A DNA stretch of 64,000 nucleotides from Nitrosopumilaceae archaeon. GTDB taxonomy: Archaea > Thermoproteota > Nitrososphaeria > Nitrososphaerales > Nitrosopumilaceae. The notes beneath the pieces were generated by a model. It had not been told where the DNA came from. It made no database searches and was given only the letters and a program-made list of their open reading frames with translations. Positions 7,951-13,780 of the stretch are shown here, piece after piece. The number at the start of each line of letters is the position of its first letter. Positions within the stretch are counted from its first letter, which is position 1. The translations under genes were made by a program, and so were the position numbers. The stretch covers positions 1-64,000 of the forward strand of contig JASHNR010000018.1 of assembly GCA_030041535.1 (NCBI GenBank). The letters run 5' to 3'.

Positions 7951-8601
7951 ATGGTCTGGATTAGACGATGTACTCACTACTTATTCATAGTAGTGGTAGC
8001 AGTAAACTCGACCTTGTTGACAATCAACACTGGAGACTATGAGTTCTACACCGACTGGGCATGGACATCGTTTGTCATATTTACCATAGGACAATCGATG
8101 ATGCTCATAGTGGGCGCGTCATATTATCTTACGTTCACTGGTGTACCAGGAACGGCAACCTACTATGCGCTGATAATGACAGTGTATACATGGATTGCAA
8201 AAGGTGCGTGGTTCTCGTTAGGATATCCGTACAGCTTCATCGTTCCACCAATATGGATACCATCGGCAATACTGATGGATCTGGCGTATTGGGCAACCAA
8301 GAGAAACAAGCACATGCTTATCTTGGTTGGAGGTGTGCTGGCTGGAATGTCAATGTCGATGTTTAACATGGTTAATCTATTGACAATAGATGATCCATTA
8401 GAGACTGCATTCAAGTATCCAAGGACTACATTGCCTCCATACATGACTCCTATAGAACCCCAAGTAGGCAAGTTCTATGATAGTCCTGTAGCGTTAGGTG
8501 CAGGTGCCGCCGCCGTTTTGGCCCCAACAATGGCGGCATTGGGATGCAAATTAACAACCTGGACTTACAGATGGATGGCAGCTTGGTCTAAATGGGACTA
8601 G
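7951..8601 (+). CDS. amoA: ammonia monooxygenase subunit A, archaeal type
   Basis: 216 residues, the usual length for archaeal AmoA. It starts M-V-W-I-R-R-C-T-H-Y-L-F and ends W-T-Y-R-W-M-A-A-W-S-K-W-D, with the familiar central blocks Y-Y-L-T-F-T-G-V-P-G-T-A-T and L-P-P-Y-M-T-P-I-E-P-Q-V-G-K-F-Y. The protein is a polytopic subunit of the membrane copper monooxygenase that oxidises ammonia to hydroxylamine. No amoX, amoC or amoB follows; about 420 bp on the right and 350 bp on the left hold no gene. The subunit is complete and shows no lesion. Confidence 0.98.
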   Translation: MVWIRRCTHYLFIVVVAVNSTLLTINTGDYEFYTDWAWTSFVIFTIGQSMMLIVGASYYLTFTGVPGTATYYALIMTVYTWIAKGAWFSLGYPYSFIVPPIWIPSAILMDLAYWATKRNKHMLILVGGVLAGMSMSMFNMVNLLTIDDPLETAFKYPRTTLPPYMTPIEPQVGKFYDSPVALGAGAAAVLAPTMAALGCKLTTWTYRWMAAWSKWD

Positions 8602-8985
8602 CCTCCTTTCTTCCTTTTTCTCAAACATCATCGTCTTTTAATATTTAAAACAAAAATCCCATACAATCTTAAAAAAATCCTTTTAGAAGCTGTCAAGTAG
8701 TATCGTATCTGGAATTAGTTTCTCTTTCTTTTTACAATCTTTGAAAATTTTAAGATGGTATCTCAAAATGGCATACATGAAAGATTTTCTACCGGTATGC
8801 ACAACATATGTCCAAGATACATCATGCTTGCAAGCACTAAAACAGTGGATGCGCCCATTGAAACATACCACCATCTGAATTTCATACATGACATGTATGG
8901 TCAAATTACAATATAAAACTACAACTAATACTCAGCGAACTAAAAATCAGATTGAATATCTTGCAATTATTCCATATGATGATCT
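8602..8985. other. gene-free interval after amoA
   Basis: Immediately after the amoA stop is a pyrimidine-rich CTTTCTTCCTTTTTCT tract (about 8605-8621) that may end transcription. Frames in this interval, including a 73-codon one on the minus strand, have no protein-like composition. No AmoX-like protein was found. Confidence 0.5.
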
Positions 8986-9217
8986 ATGTGATTAAGCTTT
9001 AAATCATTGGAACAATAATGAAGATATGACAGATGCATCATGCGGATGTGAAGCGACATCAGGCACTGATAGTCTATGCGATTGTGAGATGCAAGGAGAG
9101 TGCCTTTGTAATGTTTCTTGTATGTGCAAATCCAAAGTTTGCAAGGCTCAGACAAAAAATTCAGGTAAATGTTTTACTGTATGAGCCCAAGAAATTTCTG
9201 GTTCTTCTCCAAGCTTG
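8986..9217 (+). repeat. inverted repeat, left copy (partner 13547-13780)
   Basis: About 230 bp nearly identical to the reverse complement of 13547-13780. It spans the promoter (TTTAAATC at 8998-9005), the whole Cys-rich gene, and a relic of the last 40 or so bp of the TPR gene, which is complete only at the right copy. The right copy therefore looks ancestral. Confidence 0.9.
9026..9184 (+). CDS. Cys-rich metallothionein-like protein, copy 1
   Basis: 52 residues with ten Cys at 6, 8, 18, 20, 26, 28, 32, 34, 39 and 49, forming four C-x-C pairs (C-G-C, C-D-C, C-L-C, C-M-C), with Lys, Ser, Asp and Glu between and no aromatic residue except one late Phe. This is the composition of metallothioneins, so cytoplasmic binding of Cu(I) or Zn(II) is inferred; homology to a named family was not established. 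A TATA box TTTAAATC about 25 bp upstream indicates a leaderless mRNA. The reading frame is conserved in the second copy while its C-terminus differs (11 residues here against 6 after Cys-39 plus 2), supporting a real gene. Confidence 0.75.
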   Translation: MTDASCGCEATSGTDSLCDCEMQGECLCNVSCMCKSKVCKAQTKNSGKCFTV

Positions 9218-9407
9218 AAAAATTTTTTACATGAGTGTATGATTGAGATAGAAAAAATAAAAAATCCAGATTTTTATATGATCTTGATTCATTGAACTCT
9301 ATATACAGAAATTGCAATATCAGTTTCTGAGTTAGCCTTGAGGTATTGTCGCATAATTTGAATTAATGATTGGTCCAATATTTGATAAAAACATAATAAG
9401 ACTATGA

Positions 9408-9974
9408 TCAATTATGGTTATTTTTCCGTCCCTTTTTGAATATAAGATAACCAAATATTCCGCATCCTACACCAAGTGGAGCAACATATTCTAAAAATGA
9501 TACTACACTTGATAGTATTTCCAATATGTCATATCTGGGTGACCAGACAAATAGATTGAAAGGCGCTACCGTAATGTATCTTGTTGTATCTACTCTTAAT
9601 GCGACCAGATAGTGCCCGCCTTTTGGAAATTTATAAACAAACGAAAAATCTCCGCCACTTATCTTGTTTTTAAAGCTGTAAATTGGAATGTGTTGATTTG
9701 GATCTGTCGATGTAATAGTGACCATTGCAAGAAAATTTCTTATATGACTGCCAGTAAGATTCTGTACACTAAATGCTAACGTAACGTTCTTTCCGGTTTG
9801 TACAGTGATCGGAGTTTGGCCAAACTCCATCTTGATACCGTGCATATCGTTTTGTACCTCTTGGAAGTTCAATCCATGAAGATGAGCAGATGCATGTTTT
9901 ACCCCAAACGGTCCAGTTGCTATTGCCATTGCAACTAGCAAAATAATGATCAACCACGGCTTCATAGTTTGCAA
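9408..9974 (-). CDS. membrane-anchored extracytoplasmic beta-domain protein with predicted N-terminal His
   Basis: 188 residues. A signal peptide ends V-K-H-A-S-A at residue 30, so the processed protein would begin H-L-H-G-L-N-F. A beta-sandwich-like domain follows (about 50-145, with P-K-G-G-H-Y-L-V-A-L), then a transmembrane helix (about 150-178) and a basic K-K-G-R-K tail. N-terminal His, beta-domain and C-terminal helix is the layout of archaeal AmoB and, for the His, of CopC-like copper proteins. The H-x-H pair of AmoB is not seen. Copper binding is inference. It is downstream of the similarly built gene at 10027 (52-bp gap) and converges on the Cys-rich gene. Confidence 0.8.
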   Translation of the reverse strand: MQTMKPWLIIILLVAMAIATGPFGVKHASAHLHGLNFQEVQNDMHGIKMEFGQTPITVQTGKNVTLAFSVQNLTGSHIRNFLAMVTITSTDPNQHIPIYSFKNKISGGDFSFVYKFPKGGHYLVALRVDTTRYITVAPFNLFVWSPRYDILEILSSVVSFLEYVAPLGVGCGIFGYLIFKKGRKNNHN

Positions 9975-10026
9975 ACCTCAAGTACATTTGACTAGTTTTA
10001 GGACATGCATGAAAAACCTGTTATTT

Positions 10027-10641
10027 TTAAAGATCAATCTTTGCTAACATGCTCTTCATCCTATCTCTAGCTATCCATATTACAGACACCATGATTACGC
10101 CTACAAACGCATCTTCCAATATTGGAAACATCTCTCTCTCATTATCTGACATGTTTGGAGGAGGTTGTACTATAACGACTGGCCCTGCCGGATGTGGATT
10201 TTGGTAAACAGTGGTGGAATATGACACAGACAAGTTGTTATCTGCTATTTTTTCAAGGCTTATGGTTACAGGCCCTGGATTGTCAAAAGCAAAATATTTG
10301 TAATCGCCACTTTCCAGAGTTGTTCCTGGAATTCTTACAAGCTCCTTACCGCCTTGTGATATAACAAATTGGTAATCTACGTTTGGTACGATGATACCCG
10401 TTTCATGATCATAGAATTGAAAAATGAATATGATTTTTTCATCAGTTAAGATATTATGCGGTTCCCATGTCAGGTCCGCTTCATACTTACCGTCTTGTGT
10501 ATATGCTATTTCAGGAAATGTCAGATTCTTAGAGCTTGCATCAACTGTATTTGTTTGCACGGAATATAATTGGCCATATGCCATGGGTTCAAAAAGAACT
10601 GCGAGTACAGCAATGACCAGTAAGCATCTCATGCCTTTCAT
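10027..10641 (-). CDS. membrane-anchored extracytoplasmic beta-domain protein
   Basis: 204 residues: signal peptide ending M-A-Y-G (about residue 23), a beta-rich domain (about 40-150) with E-S-G-D-Y-K-Y and T-W-E-P-H segments, a proline-rich linker, a transmembrane helix (about 172-190) and a short R-D-R-M-K-S cytoplasmic tail. It is the first of two like-oriented genes with the same overall layout and probably forms an operon with the next one. Function unknown. Confidence 0.8.
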   Translation of the reverse strand: MKGMRCLLVIAVLAVLFEPMAYGQLYSVQTNTVDASSKNLTFPEIAYTQDGKYEADLTWEPHNILTDEKIIFIFQFYDHETGIIVPNVDYQFVISQGGKELVRIPGTTLESGDYKYFAFDNPGPVTISLEKIADNNLSVSYSTTVYQNPHPAGPVVIVQPPPNMSDNEREMFPILEDAFVGVIMVSVIWIARDRMKSMLAKIDL

Positions 10642-11019
10642 AACTGTTTTAATCCGGACTTGAAAAAGTCACTGAGAATTTCATGTCGAATCAATTATCC
10701 ACTACCGCCATAACAACCGCCCAGCCATGCACACCGCCGTAAAAATTGCACACATCTTTACTTTTGCTGAATATTTCAGATTCCATGTGCGGTATACATC
10801 ATCATACCATATTAGTGAGACATAACTTTGTTAATCAAAATATAATTTCTGTTTATTGCATACTCACATACTGCAGTATGACAAAATATCTCTGAATAGA
10901 GTTATGTTATTTTATAGCCATGCCATTTCAATGCATAAAGTACGCTTTTGAGTTTGTGTCAAATATTCCGCTAACATTCTACGATCTGTTCGCAAATTCA
11001 ATGAAATTGAATTGTATGT
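10642..11019. other. gene-free interval
   Basis: Promoter side of the gene ending at 10641 and downstream side of the gene at 11020. No credible coding frame. A palindrome TACTGCAGTA lies near 10868-10877; nothing else was recognised. Confidence 0.45.
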
Positions 11020-12318
11020 CTAAGTAGGTCGCGCCGCTCCACAGTTTGAGCAGTGGTTTTGACTTGTGAGCGTATAGTATCCGCATTTGAAGCATAGCCA
11101 ATCTTTTTCTTCTTTTTCCATCACAACAATAGTATTTGATTTTACAGCTCCATCAAACTTGTCAGCCCACTGTTGTCTTTGCTCGTATTGCACAGGACCC
11201 CATGGCGCATCAGGTTTTCTATTCTTATCACTTTTCAGCTTTTTATTGCTCCAGATGAATACGAATACTGCAATACCGCCTCCAAATGCTGCCATACCAT
11301 ACATGACCATACCTGATATGCCTCCCGCTGTTGTATTGGATACATTAGCAGCTGCGGTAGGAGTGGTGGTAAAAGCAGGTGCACCTCCCACATTATACGC
11401 CTGCGCCTGACCCTCTACATCAAATGTCCCAGAAGCTGGTTGCTCTATAGTACGAAGGTGATAGACGGCGTCGCTAGTAAAGTCTGCATCCTCCTGTTTA
11501 GCATTCATCACTCCCGCTTGTATCGTACTGACTCCTGATGAAAAAGTAGTTACTGCAATCTTTGTTCCGGTGTATTGTAATGTGGTTGCCCCGCTAACAA
11601 TATAAGATGGATCAAATAAATGGTCCCAGCTGCTCAATGGCTGCTGTTTGAAAAGTGTGCTTGCATCAAGAAGATTTTCTTCAAGTAACTTCTCCGCATT
11701 GCTTCCCTTTATGGCACCATATACAACAGGTAATTCTTTTTGAATAAAACTAATTGGGTAGTTGATCTCCAAGTTGCCATAAGTTGGAGTAGATAGAGTA
11801 ACGTCTTGATTTATGTCAAAACCTGCCCAGGAGGCATCAAGAATGAATGGAGTGCCCCCTCCTCCAATACCTGCATTTACCGTATTGGTGCCTTGATACA
11901 TGACATATCCAATTATTGTTGGAATCACCTGAACCAGATAAGTAATTGAGGCCTCGTCTGAACCTCCGTTAATCTGTACGATATAATTGACTTTGAGATT
12001 TGTTACTGTAGCAGAACTCTTTTGAGCTTTTATGGCATTATCTAGAATCTGCATAAAGTTAGCAGTACTTGGATTATCCGAAGAGTCTGTGCTAAATGAT
12101 ATTGTCGTATTCTTGCCATTTAGTGCACTCTCTAATTTGCCGCCGTTCTTGTAATCTATGAATATTATCTTTGTGAATTTGAAATTCGGAGTGATGGCAT
12201 TGCCAGATATTGGCAAATACGCAGTAAGATCAGTAGTGGCCCAAACGGGCAAAATCATTCCAGATATCAACATGCTGCTTATTGCGCAAACAAAGAGAAA
12301 TTTGCTCATATTATACAT
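11020..12318 (-). CDS. secreted membrane-anchored protein with cytoplasmic zinc ribbon
   Basis: 432 residues. A signal peptide (ending about 28, V-W-A) is followed by a long extracytoplasmic domain rich in Ser, Thr and Asn (30-325), a glycine-rich transmembrane helix (about 330-352), a basic cytoplasmic linker and a C-terminal zinc ribbon with C-F-K-C and C-S-N-C-G in the last 25 residues. The layout suggests a sensor or scaffold that links the cell surface to the cytoplasm; this is inference. A TATA-like AATATAATA lies just upstream of the first ATG. A relic of the same tail is at 4711. Confidence 0.85.
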   Translation of the reverse strand: MYNMSKFLFVCAISSMLISGMILPVWATTDLTAYLPISGNAITPNFKFTKIIFIDYKNGGKLESALNGKNTTISFSTDSSDNPSTANFMQILDNAIKAQKSSATVTNLKVNYIVQINGGSDEASITYLVQVIPTIIGYVMYQGTNTVNAGIGGGGTPFILDASWAGFDINQDVTLSTPTYGNLEINYPISFIQKELPVVYGAIKGSNAEKLLEENLLDASTLFKQQPLSSWDHLFDPSYIVSGATTLQYTGTKIAVTTFSSGVSTIQAGVMNAKQEDADFTSDAVYHLRTIEQPASGTFDVEGQAQAYNVGGAPAFTTTPTAAANVSNTTAGGISGMVMYGMAAFGGGIAVFVFIWSNKKLKSDKNRKPDAPWGPVQYEQRQQWADKFDGAVKSNTIVVMEKEEKDWLCFKCGYYTLTSQNHCSNCGAARPT

Positions 12319-12618
12319 GGATGTAAGGTTTGTATTATATTATGACTATCCAATCTTAGATGTGCAATCTTGATTTATGTTTCACAAAACTGGCTGCCGT
12401 TTCATGTCGAGTGTTTTTAAGAAATGGTGTATCATACTGAAATGAACTACAATCTTCCTTCCATGGCTGAACACGTAGGAAGTGAAAATATAGTTCTAGT
12501 CACCGTGTTCAGCATTTCGTGATTTAGTAAACGTAGTATCTCTATTCTGTTTCTACAACAGCAATACATTACAATCATTTGCATTCATTAATTTAGTAAA
12601 AATGAGAATTATCGTTAC
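12319..12618. other. intergenic promoter region
   Basis: Divergent spacer between the zinc-ribbon membrane protein and the TPR gene. It is AT-rich with TATA-like sequences at both sides and contains a partial palindrome near 12466-12510 (CTGAACACG ... CGTGTTCAG). No gene seen. Confidence 0.45.
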
Positions 12619-13590
12619 ATGTTATTAGATAGATACCACAAAAATGTTATAGGCTTGAGGTTTGGATTCTGGAAAAAACAGATATCAGACAAAAAAGACA
12701 GAAAGAGAATAGAATTAGGTTCTGGAGAGAATCAGAAAAAGGAATCTATATCACATGGACTGGAATCAGAAGAGACAAAAGTACTTGATGTGCAACCCCC
12801 ACAAGACGAGAAATCGTTATTGATCAAACTTGAAGAAAATCAAAAGTATGTGGTGATAGGATTGACAAGGGCAGGCGGAACGCTCATGCTCAAGGCAGGA
12901 CAGTCAGTCAAGTTGTTGGAGGAAGTAAGAAACGATATTGCCACCACCATCGAGGAAAATAGGAAACTAAAACAATTGCTGCAAAACAAGGGCTGGACAG
13001 AAAGTGACGAATATCTACTTGCAGTCGGAAACTTTCATTACTTTAGAGGCGTGCCACACAACTCACTTGAATTTTATGATCACATATTAGAGAGAAATCC
13101 AGACAAGATCTCCGCATTAAACAATAAAGGTGTGATACTTGATAACTTGAGTATGAATACAACAGCACTTGAATGCTATGATAAAGCCTTGAAAATGCAT
13201 TCGGAAAATGCACACATTTGGTTCAATAGGGGAATGTCGCTTTACAAGGAGGGTAGATACGACGAGGCATTGGAATCGTTTGGCATGACGCTCAGGATAG
13301 AACCACTATATTCCAGCGCTGTTGCTTTTAAAGCTCATGCCCTCTCAAGGTTAGGTAGAAAGAATGAAGCATTCGAGTTTTACAACAGGGCTCTACTTTC
13401 AGATCCTGACAATGCTGAACTGTTATACAACAAAGCGCGCGTCTGTTCGTTAAAGGGTATGAATCAAGAGGCGCTTGCTACACTTGAGAAAGCAATAGGA
13501 ATTGATCCGAGGTTGAAGGTAATGGCTACACAGGATAAATCTTTTGCAAGCTTGGAAAAGAACCAGAAATTTCTTGGGCTCATACAGTAA
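12619..13590 (+). CDS. tetratricopeptide-repeat protein
   Basis: 323 residues. The N-terminal 140 are charged and partly coiled-coil (repeated K, E, Q and a leucine-rich heptad region around 95-125). From about residue 130 there are five to six TPR units with the usual W-x-x-x-G-x-x-x-x-x and A-x-x-x-Y/F-x-x-x-L pattern, for example W-F-N-R-G-M-S-L-Y-K-E-G-R-Y-D-E-A. A cytoplasmic protein-interaction scaffold. It ends 5 bp before the convergent Cys-rich gene, and its last bases lie within the inverted repeat. Confidence 0.85.
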   Translation: MLLDRYHKNVIGLRFGFWKKQISDKKDRKRIELGSGENQKKESISHGLESEETKVLDVQPPQDEKSLLIKLEENQKYVVIGLTRAGGTLMLKAGQSVKLLEEVRNDIATTIEENRKLKQLLQNKGWTESDEYLLAVGNFHYFRGVPHNSLEFYDHILERNPDKISALNNKGVILDNLSMNTTALECYDKALKMHSENAHIWFNRGMSLYKEGRYDEALESFGMTLRIEPLYSSAVAFKAHALSRLGRKNEAFEFYNRALLSDPDNAELLYNKARVCSLKGMNQEALATLEKAIGIDPRLKVMATQDKSFASLEKNQKFLGLIQ

Positions 13591-13780
13591 AACATTTACC
13601 TGAAATTTTTTGTCTGAGTCTTGCAAACTTTGGATTTGCACATACAAGAAACATTGCAAATACACTCTCCCTGCATCTCACAATCGCATAGACTATCAGT
13701 GCCTGATGTCGCTTCACATCCGCATGATGTATCTGTCATATCTTCATTATTGTTCCAAATGATTTAAACCTTAATCACAT
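13547..13780 (-). repeat. inverted repeat, right copy (partner 8986-9217)
   Basis: Reverse complement of the left copy, including the end of the TPR gene, the complete Cys-rich gene and its promoter (TTTAAACC on the plus strand near 13763). The two arms face each other across about 4.3 kb and could support inversion by homologous recombination. Confidence 0.9.
13596..13739 (-). CDS. Cys-rich metallothionein-like protein, copy 2
   Basis: 47 residues with nine Cys at 6, 8, 18, 20, 26, 28, 32, 34 and 39, in the same positions as copy 1. Differences inside the shared part are few (for example A4T, L27I, A41T) and conservative. After residue 45 a one-base difference changes the frame, so this copy ends in F-R and lacks the tenth Cys. 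Composition (C-x-C pairs, Lys, Ser, no aromatic residue before the end) indicates thiolate metal binding; the metal is not known. Leaderless start as in copy 1. Confidence 0.75.
   Translation of the reverse strand: MTDTSCGCEATSGTDSLCDCEMQGECICNVSCMCKSKVCKTQTKNFR

Follow-up and report, generated by a model that had tools for sequence, protein, structure and literature searches.

Metallothioneins are small proteins that are rich in cysteine (about 15-35%), carry CxC motifs and contain few aromatic residues. As a class they hold several d10 metal ions in thiolate clusters and are further characterised by expression that responds to metal or by a metal-tolerance phenotype. The metallothionein of Neurospora is a copper thionein, and its CxC-x5-CxC-x3-CxC spacing is also found in animal beta domains, which bind Zn. 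In bacteria, SmtA has 56 aa with eight Cys and two His (PMC12193353), while the mycobacterial MymT is predicted to bind up to six Cu(I) (PMC7558416). Two further kinds of copper-handling protein, Csp and CopC/CopD, have been discussed for bacteria or ammonia-oxidising archaea (PMC7558416, PMC7785015, PMC13003922). A full-text literature search, with most subscription journals outside its coverage, returned no paper on a metallothionein in ammonia-oxidising archaea.

The window analysed here, a 64,000-nt stretch from a genome of Ca. Nitrosotalea, contains two small genes whose products resemble metallothioneins. The original prediction of two Cys-rich frames with nine common Cys and four CxC pairs was borne out, as both translate as claimed. 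Copy 1 (9026..9184, plus strand) encodes a 52-aa protein, MTDASCGCEATSGTDSLCDCEMQGECLCNVSCMCKSKVCKAQTKNSGKCFTV, and copy 2 (13596..13739, minus strand) a 47-aa protein, MTDTSCGCEATSGTDSLCDCEMQGECICNVSCMCKSKVCKTQTKNFR; they match the family profile described below with E-values of 8.7e-22 and 7.6e-23, respectively. The nine common Cys stand at residues 6, 8, 18, 20, 26, 28, 32, 34 and 39, forming four CxC pairs plus one, with gaps of 1, 9, 1, 5, 1, 3, 1 and 4 residues in both copies. Neither protein contains His, and the near lack of aromatic residues noted earlier amounts to a single one in each copy. At 47-52 aa and 19% Cys, with four CxC pairs and one aromatic residue, both therefore fit the broad metallothionein composition. 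A TATA-like box, TTTAAAT, lies approximately 25 nt 5' of the copy 1 start (8998..9004, plus strand), in the position that it occupies in canonical genes, and sequence and alignment of both copies place the same box 5' of copy 2 (13762..13768, minus strand). Copy 2 ends as the family usually does, with the ancestral C-terminus F(R/K)-stop. In copy 1, a 1-bp deletion near the 3' end (one T missing from an A/T run) shifts the last codons and creates a new C-terminus, which accounts for the tenth Cys of this copy; an assembly error at the missing base is conceivable.

A profile search located the same domain in 203 of the 221 sampled genomes of Nitrosopumilaceae. When the count is limited to genomes with a completeness of 90% or more, the domain is present in 132 of 136 Nitrosopumilaceae and in 0 of 85 genomes belonging to the order's other families, a split that assumes that the 69 negatives beyond those listed, which were ordered by kinship, include no further Nitrosopumilaceae. 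The matches include Nitrosopumilus, Nitrosarchaeum, Cenarchaeum and marine group I, and it is because they carry these names that we call the family Nitrosopumilaceae. One refuting condition of the original prediction was the lack of a homologue in any other genome; homologues were found in most genomes of both the genus and the family. A raw six-Cys DNA pattern searched across the phylum was polluted by simple repeats and was excluded from these counts. No Pfam or NCBIfam entry matched the domain, even at E 10, no known metallothionein family gave a significant profile match, the sole match in a PDB profile search was at chance level, and no relative was found in viral contigs. The family appears to be unnamed and, among the lineages searched, confined to Nitrosopumilaceae.

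The evidence that these genes are coding and under selection comes from the family rather than from the window. The 44 codons aligned between the two window copies show 3 synonymous changes and as many non-synonymous ones (dS 0.126, dN 0.029), a difference that was not significant (Fisher p = 0.09). The comparison between copies proposed with the original prediction gave a weak result, and an argument for selection from this pair alone was dropped. Conservation across genomes does argue for coding selection: the canonical genes have a median pairwise dN/dS of 0.21, all nine Cys are retained in 34 sequences while their codons alternate between TGT and TGC, and variable positions across the 44 codons of this set fall on the third codon position in 41 cases, the first in 22 and the second in 19. 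Thirteen columns are invariant in both the stand-alone and the membrane-fused form of the domain, namely the nine Cys, G7, D19, Q23 and G24. The resulting pattern, C-G-C-x9-C-D-C-x2-Q-G-x-C-x-C-x3-C-x-C-x4-C (one member has x10 in place of x9), is satisfied by both window copies, the canonical copy of the host and the fused tails. On the strength of this comparative sequence evidence, both small genes are real and are members of a family under purifying selection.

In its canonical form the domain is a stand-alone gene of 44-49 aa. Wherever the flanks allow it to be seen, this gene lies directly 3' of the same ~294-aa gene and is followed by genes for secreted proteins, an order that is conserved from Nitrosotalea to Nitrosopumilus and Cenarchaeum. 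The host genome holds such a canonical gene as a third copy on another contig (G000:C34:2700-2843). The motif AAC(C/T)TTTTAAAA, or a near variant, precedes the ATG of canonical genes by approximately 25 nt; given this distance of the TATA-like motif from the start codon, the transcripts of the canonical genes and of copy 1 are probably leaderless. The upstream neighbour (L031:1752-2636 and relatives) had no Pfam match, and its structural model (pLDDT 91) was nearest to kanamycin/ANT-type nucleotidyltransferases, with a TM of about 0.4. Reading the function of the family from this neighbour was dropped, as nucleotidyltransferase-like folds hold no copper clue, and none was found in the family's conserved neighbours. 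A copper-limitation motif from N. viennensis matched the window 5 times against 3.3 expected, with 0 matches at the metallothionein-like promoters.

In many Nitrosopumilus-type genomes the same domain also forms the C-terminal tail of a predicted membrane protein of ~455 aa, which begins with a signal-like sequence and has a single hydrophobic segment ahead of the tail (topology judged by eye) and whose gene adjoins cofD/cofC-like genes. It is unusual for one Cys cluster to occur both free and fused to a membrane protein. The model of the fused protein had a pLDDT of 50, and no PDB match was obtained at E <= 0.001. Nitrosotalea has a homologue of the fused gene in the same setting (G000:C47), without the metallothionein-like tail. 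Between the two window copies, clustering and alignment identified a paralogue of the fused protein, a 432-aa predicted membrane protein (11020..12318, minus strand) that ends, at residues 404-431, in a probable zinc ribbon (a weak Pfam match, below the cut-off). A bin labelled Alphaproteobacteria (L073, JAJFGV010000001.1), probably contaminated or mislabelled, also has the fused gene among its usual neighbours in a Nitrosopumilus-type locus.

The window copies are set apart from the canonical gene of their own genome, to which they are approximately 50% identical. They cluster with the TA_20 gene at the canonical position (L063; SH support 0.999), with which they have SGTDSLCDCEMQGECLC, or nearly so, in common, and G026 has a broken remnant of this subtype next to its second amoA. 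The tree thus identifies them as a TA_20-like accessory subtype, the origin of which could be either transfer or old paralogy. Based on this grouping and on the broken remnant, the subtype seems to have become linked to a second amoA in some Nitrosotalea, to have decayed in one and to have doubled in another. The doubling is visible as an inverted duplication, with the copies on arms ~4.4 kb apart that a repeat search matched over 9007-9161/13604-13758 (96%) and 9154-9236/13528-13610 (89%). Alignment together with the repeat search delimits arm 1 (9007..9236, plus strand) on the copy 1 side, which holds a fragment of the 3' end of a TPR gene, and arm 2 (13528..13758, minus strand) on the copy 2 side, which overlaps the intact end of that gene. 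The duplicated unit spans the core promoter (TTTAAAT box), the metallothionein-like gene and the last codons of the TPR gene. Since the whole TPR gene (12619..13590, plus strand; Pfam TPR_1, 9e-28) adjoins copy 2, with which it is convergent, and copy 1 has just a duplicate of its tail next to it, copy 2 probably served as the source from which copy 1 was inserted.

The amoA gene that was noted near these copies (7951..8601, plus strand) was correctly recognised (PF12942, 6.8e-104), but the implied link between the two does not hold in general. In the complete genome G035, which matches N. devanaterra, the metallothionein-like gene is at 383,604 and amoA at 1,524,933, and a general linkage was rejected on the grounds that the canonical gene is distant from amoA. 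The window amoA, which lies outside the metallothionein unit, has no amoB or amoC nearby and is 93% identical to the amoA beside amoC on contig C8 of the same genome (G000:C8:1247-1897). It groups with the extra or lone amoA of G019, G023 and G026 (support 97/86). As it is a second, lone copy, the proximity is a quirk of this lineage. A joint transfer of amoA and the metallothionein-like gene from TA_20 was unsupported, as the amoA of TA_20 does not group with that of the window. Extra amoA copies similar to the window's are also present in G006, G018, G019 and G026, and Ca. N. okcheonensis is already known to have two (PMC10753782). Between amoA and copy 1, on the minus strand (8763-8894), is a conserved small membrane protein, MSCMKFRWWYVSMG..., with relatives in 36 of the 37 genomes of the genus, several of which have extra or longer copies.

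We consider it rather probable that the family encodes a metallothionein-like thiolate-cluster protein that buffers intracellular metal, most likely Cu(I) and possibly Zn(II). Family conservation supports the metallothionein-like part of the original prediction, and the copper or zinc role stays as conditional as it was. The stand-alone product would be a short peptide, probably in the cytosol, with its nine Cys wrapped around a metal-thiolate cluster, serving a cell that depends on copper enzymes; the ancestral form is one free-standing gene behind a TATA box of its own. As a tail on a predicted one-pass membrane protein, the same cluster would hold metal thiolates on the cytosolic side of the membrane. 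In the Nitrosotalea host, a TA_20-like subtype near a second amoA was later doubled by the local inverted duplication. Two considerations point towards copper: the restriction of the family to a lineage of ammonia oxidisers that depend on copper, and the postulate that N. maritimus has a copper chaperone besides CopC (PMC7785015). Points against this reading are that no known metallothionein family gave a profile match, that the copper-limitation motif is absent from these promoters and that the conserved neighbours offer no copper clue. A further suggestion, which we regard as possible but doubtful, is that the free form, as a cytosolic Cu(I) buffer, and the membrane-anchored form, whose tail would pass copper on at the membrane, together supply the missing intracellular copper step, with some Nitrosotalea raising the dose near their second amoA. 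Copper supply is considered a determinant of the niche that ammonia-oxidising archaea occupy, and a near-universal 47-aa gene makes intracellular buffering directly testable.

The most serious alternative, which we judge fairly unlikely, is a zinc or cadmium metallothionein, with Zn(II) or Cd(II) as the physiological metal and a role in storage or detoxification. CxC thiolate clusters also bind Zn and Cd, and the paralogue of the fused membrane protein has its probable zinc ribbon where the metallothionein tail would be. Moreover, N. sinensis has a low copper tolerance and a low copper content (PMC13003922), which speaks for zinc and also disfavours a strong copper store. Against this, the window proteins are free of His, while the Zn protein SmtA combines eight Cys with two. 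The match of the Cys core to the copper thionein of Neurospora also points away from zinc, but is undecisive, as the same spacing occurs in Zn-binding animal beta domains.

Less probable still is that the protein is a copper sensor, a thiol-redox buffer or a specific metal donor instead of a bulk buffer, the Cys tail signalling or passing metal to a partner at the membrane and the free form doing likewise in solution. The conserved non-Cys residues G7, D19, Q23 and G24 exceed the needs of a plain buffer, and the membrane-tethered form suits such a role; however, the analysis found neither a partner gene nor a DNA-binding part nor a folded metallochaperone domain, and the neighbours were uninformative. 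Finally, it is highly improbable that the frames in the window arose by chance or are decaying and give no protein: the window pair's dN/dS, the frameshift in copy 1 and the broken remnant in G026 would fit this, but nine Cys, start and core promoter are retained in both copies and relatives across the family are under purifying selection, which excludes chance for the family and leaves a recent loss of function conceivable for one accessory copy.

Other Cys-rich proteins were encountered in relatives of the host. Long proteins that contain many metallothionein-like modules and are apparently secreted occur in two Nitrosopumilus-type genomes (L188:1498-2466 in G118 and L189, minus strand, in G158). 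One has (GCNCGDGQH)n repeats, and the only Pfam match was a weak one to Metallothio_2; they are possibly extracellular metal sponges. Two more small Cys-rich proteins, MACGCSSNNEGCVDANCDCQKTGTCTCGSDCNCAANKK and MDSCGCDKRGCIDTSCDCLDSQVCMCGEHCNC..., are encoded at L190 (G091:C13), about nt 1617-1745 on the plus strand and on the minus strand; they form another metallothionein-like group, with no significant Pfam match.

With regard to described systems, the Nitrosopumilaceae protein would work like a metallothionein, which is a different claim from membership in SmtA or MymT. It resembles SmtA/BmtA as a small Cys-rich protein with a proposed role in metal sequestration. Membership in that group was rejected: the window copies match no bacterial metallothionein profile (Pfam, NCBIfam, E 10) and lack mixed Cys/His ligands, having no Cys/His zinc-finger site because they contain no His. 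MymT, a Cu(I) protein, is likewise small, Cys-rich and originally unannotated; the archaeal family had no NCBIfam match. The Csps are rigid four-helix bundles (PMC7558416) and CopC/D are membrane or external copper proteins (PMC7785015), both unlike a 47-aa CxC peptide. The Neurospora crassa metallothionein (1T2Y) and MT_nc (1M0J) are also small, Cys-rich and almost free of aromatic residues. The archaeal core CxC-x5-CxC-x3-CxC is spaced identically over these six Cys, with no significant sequence match, and convergence is as likely as kinship. The archaeal family differs in its added N-terminal CGC, its final gap (x4-C instead of x2-C), its conserved DC..QG and its fusion to a membrane protein.
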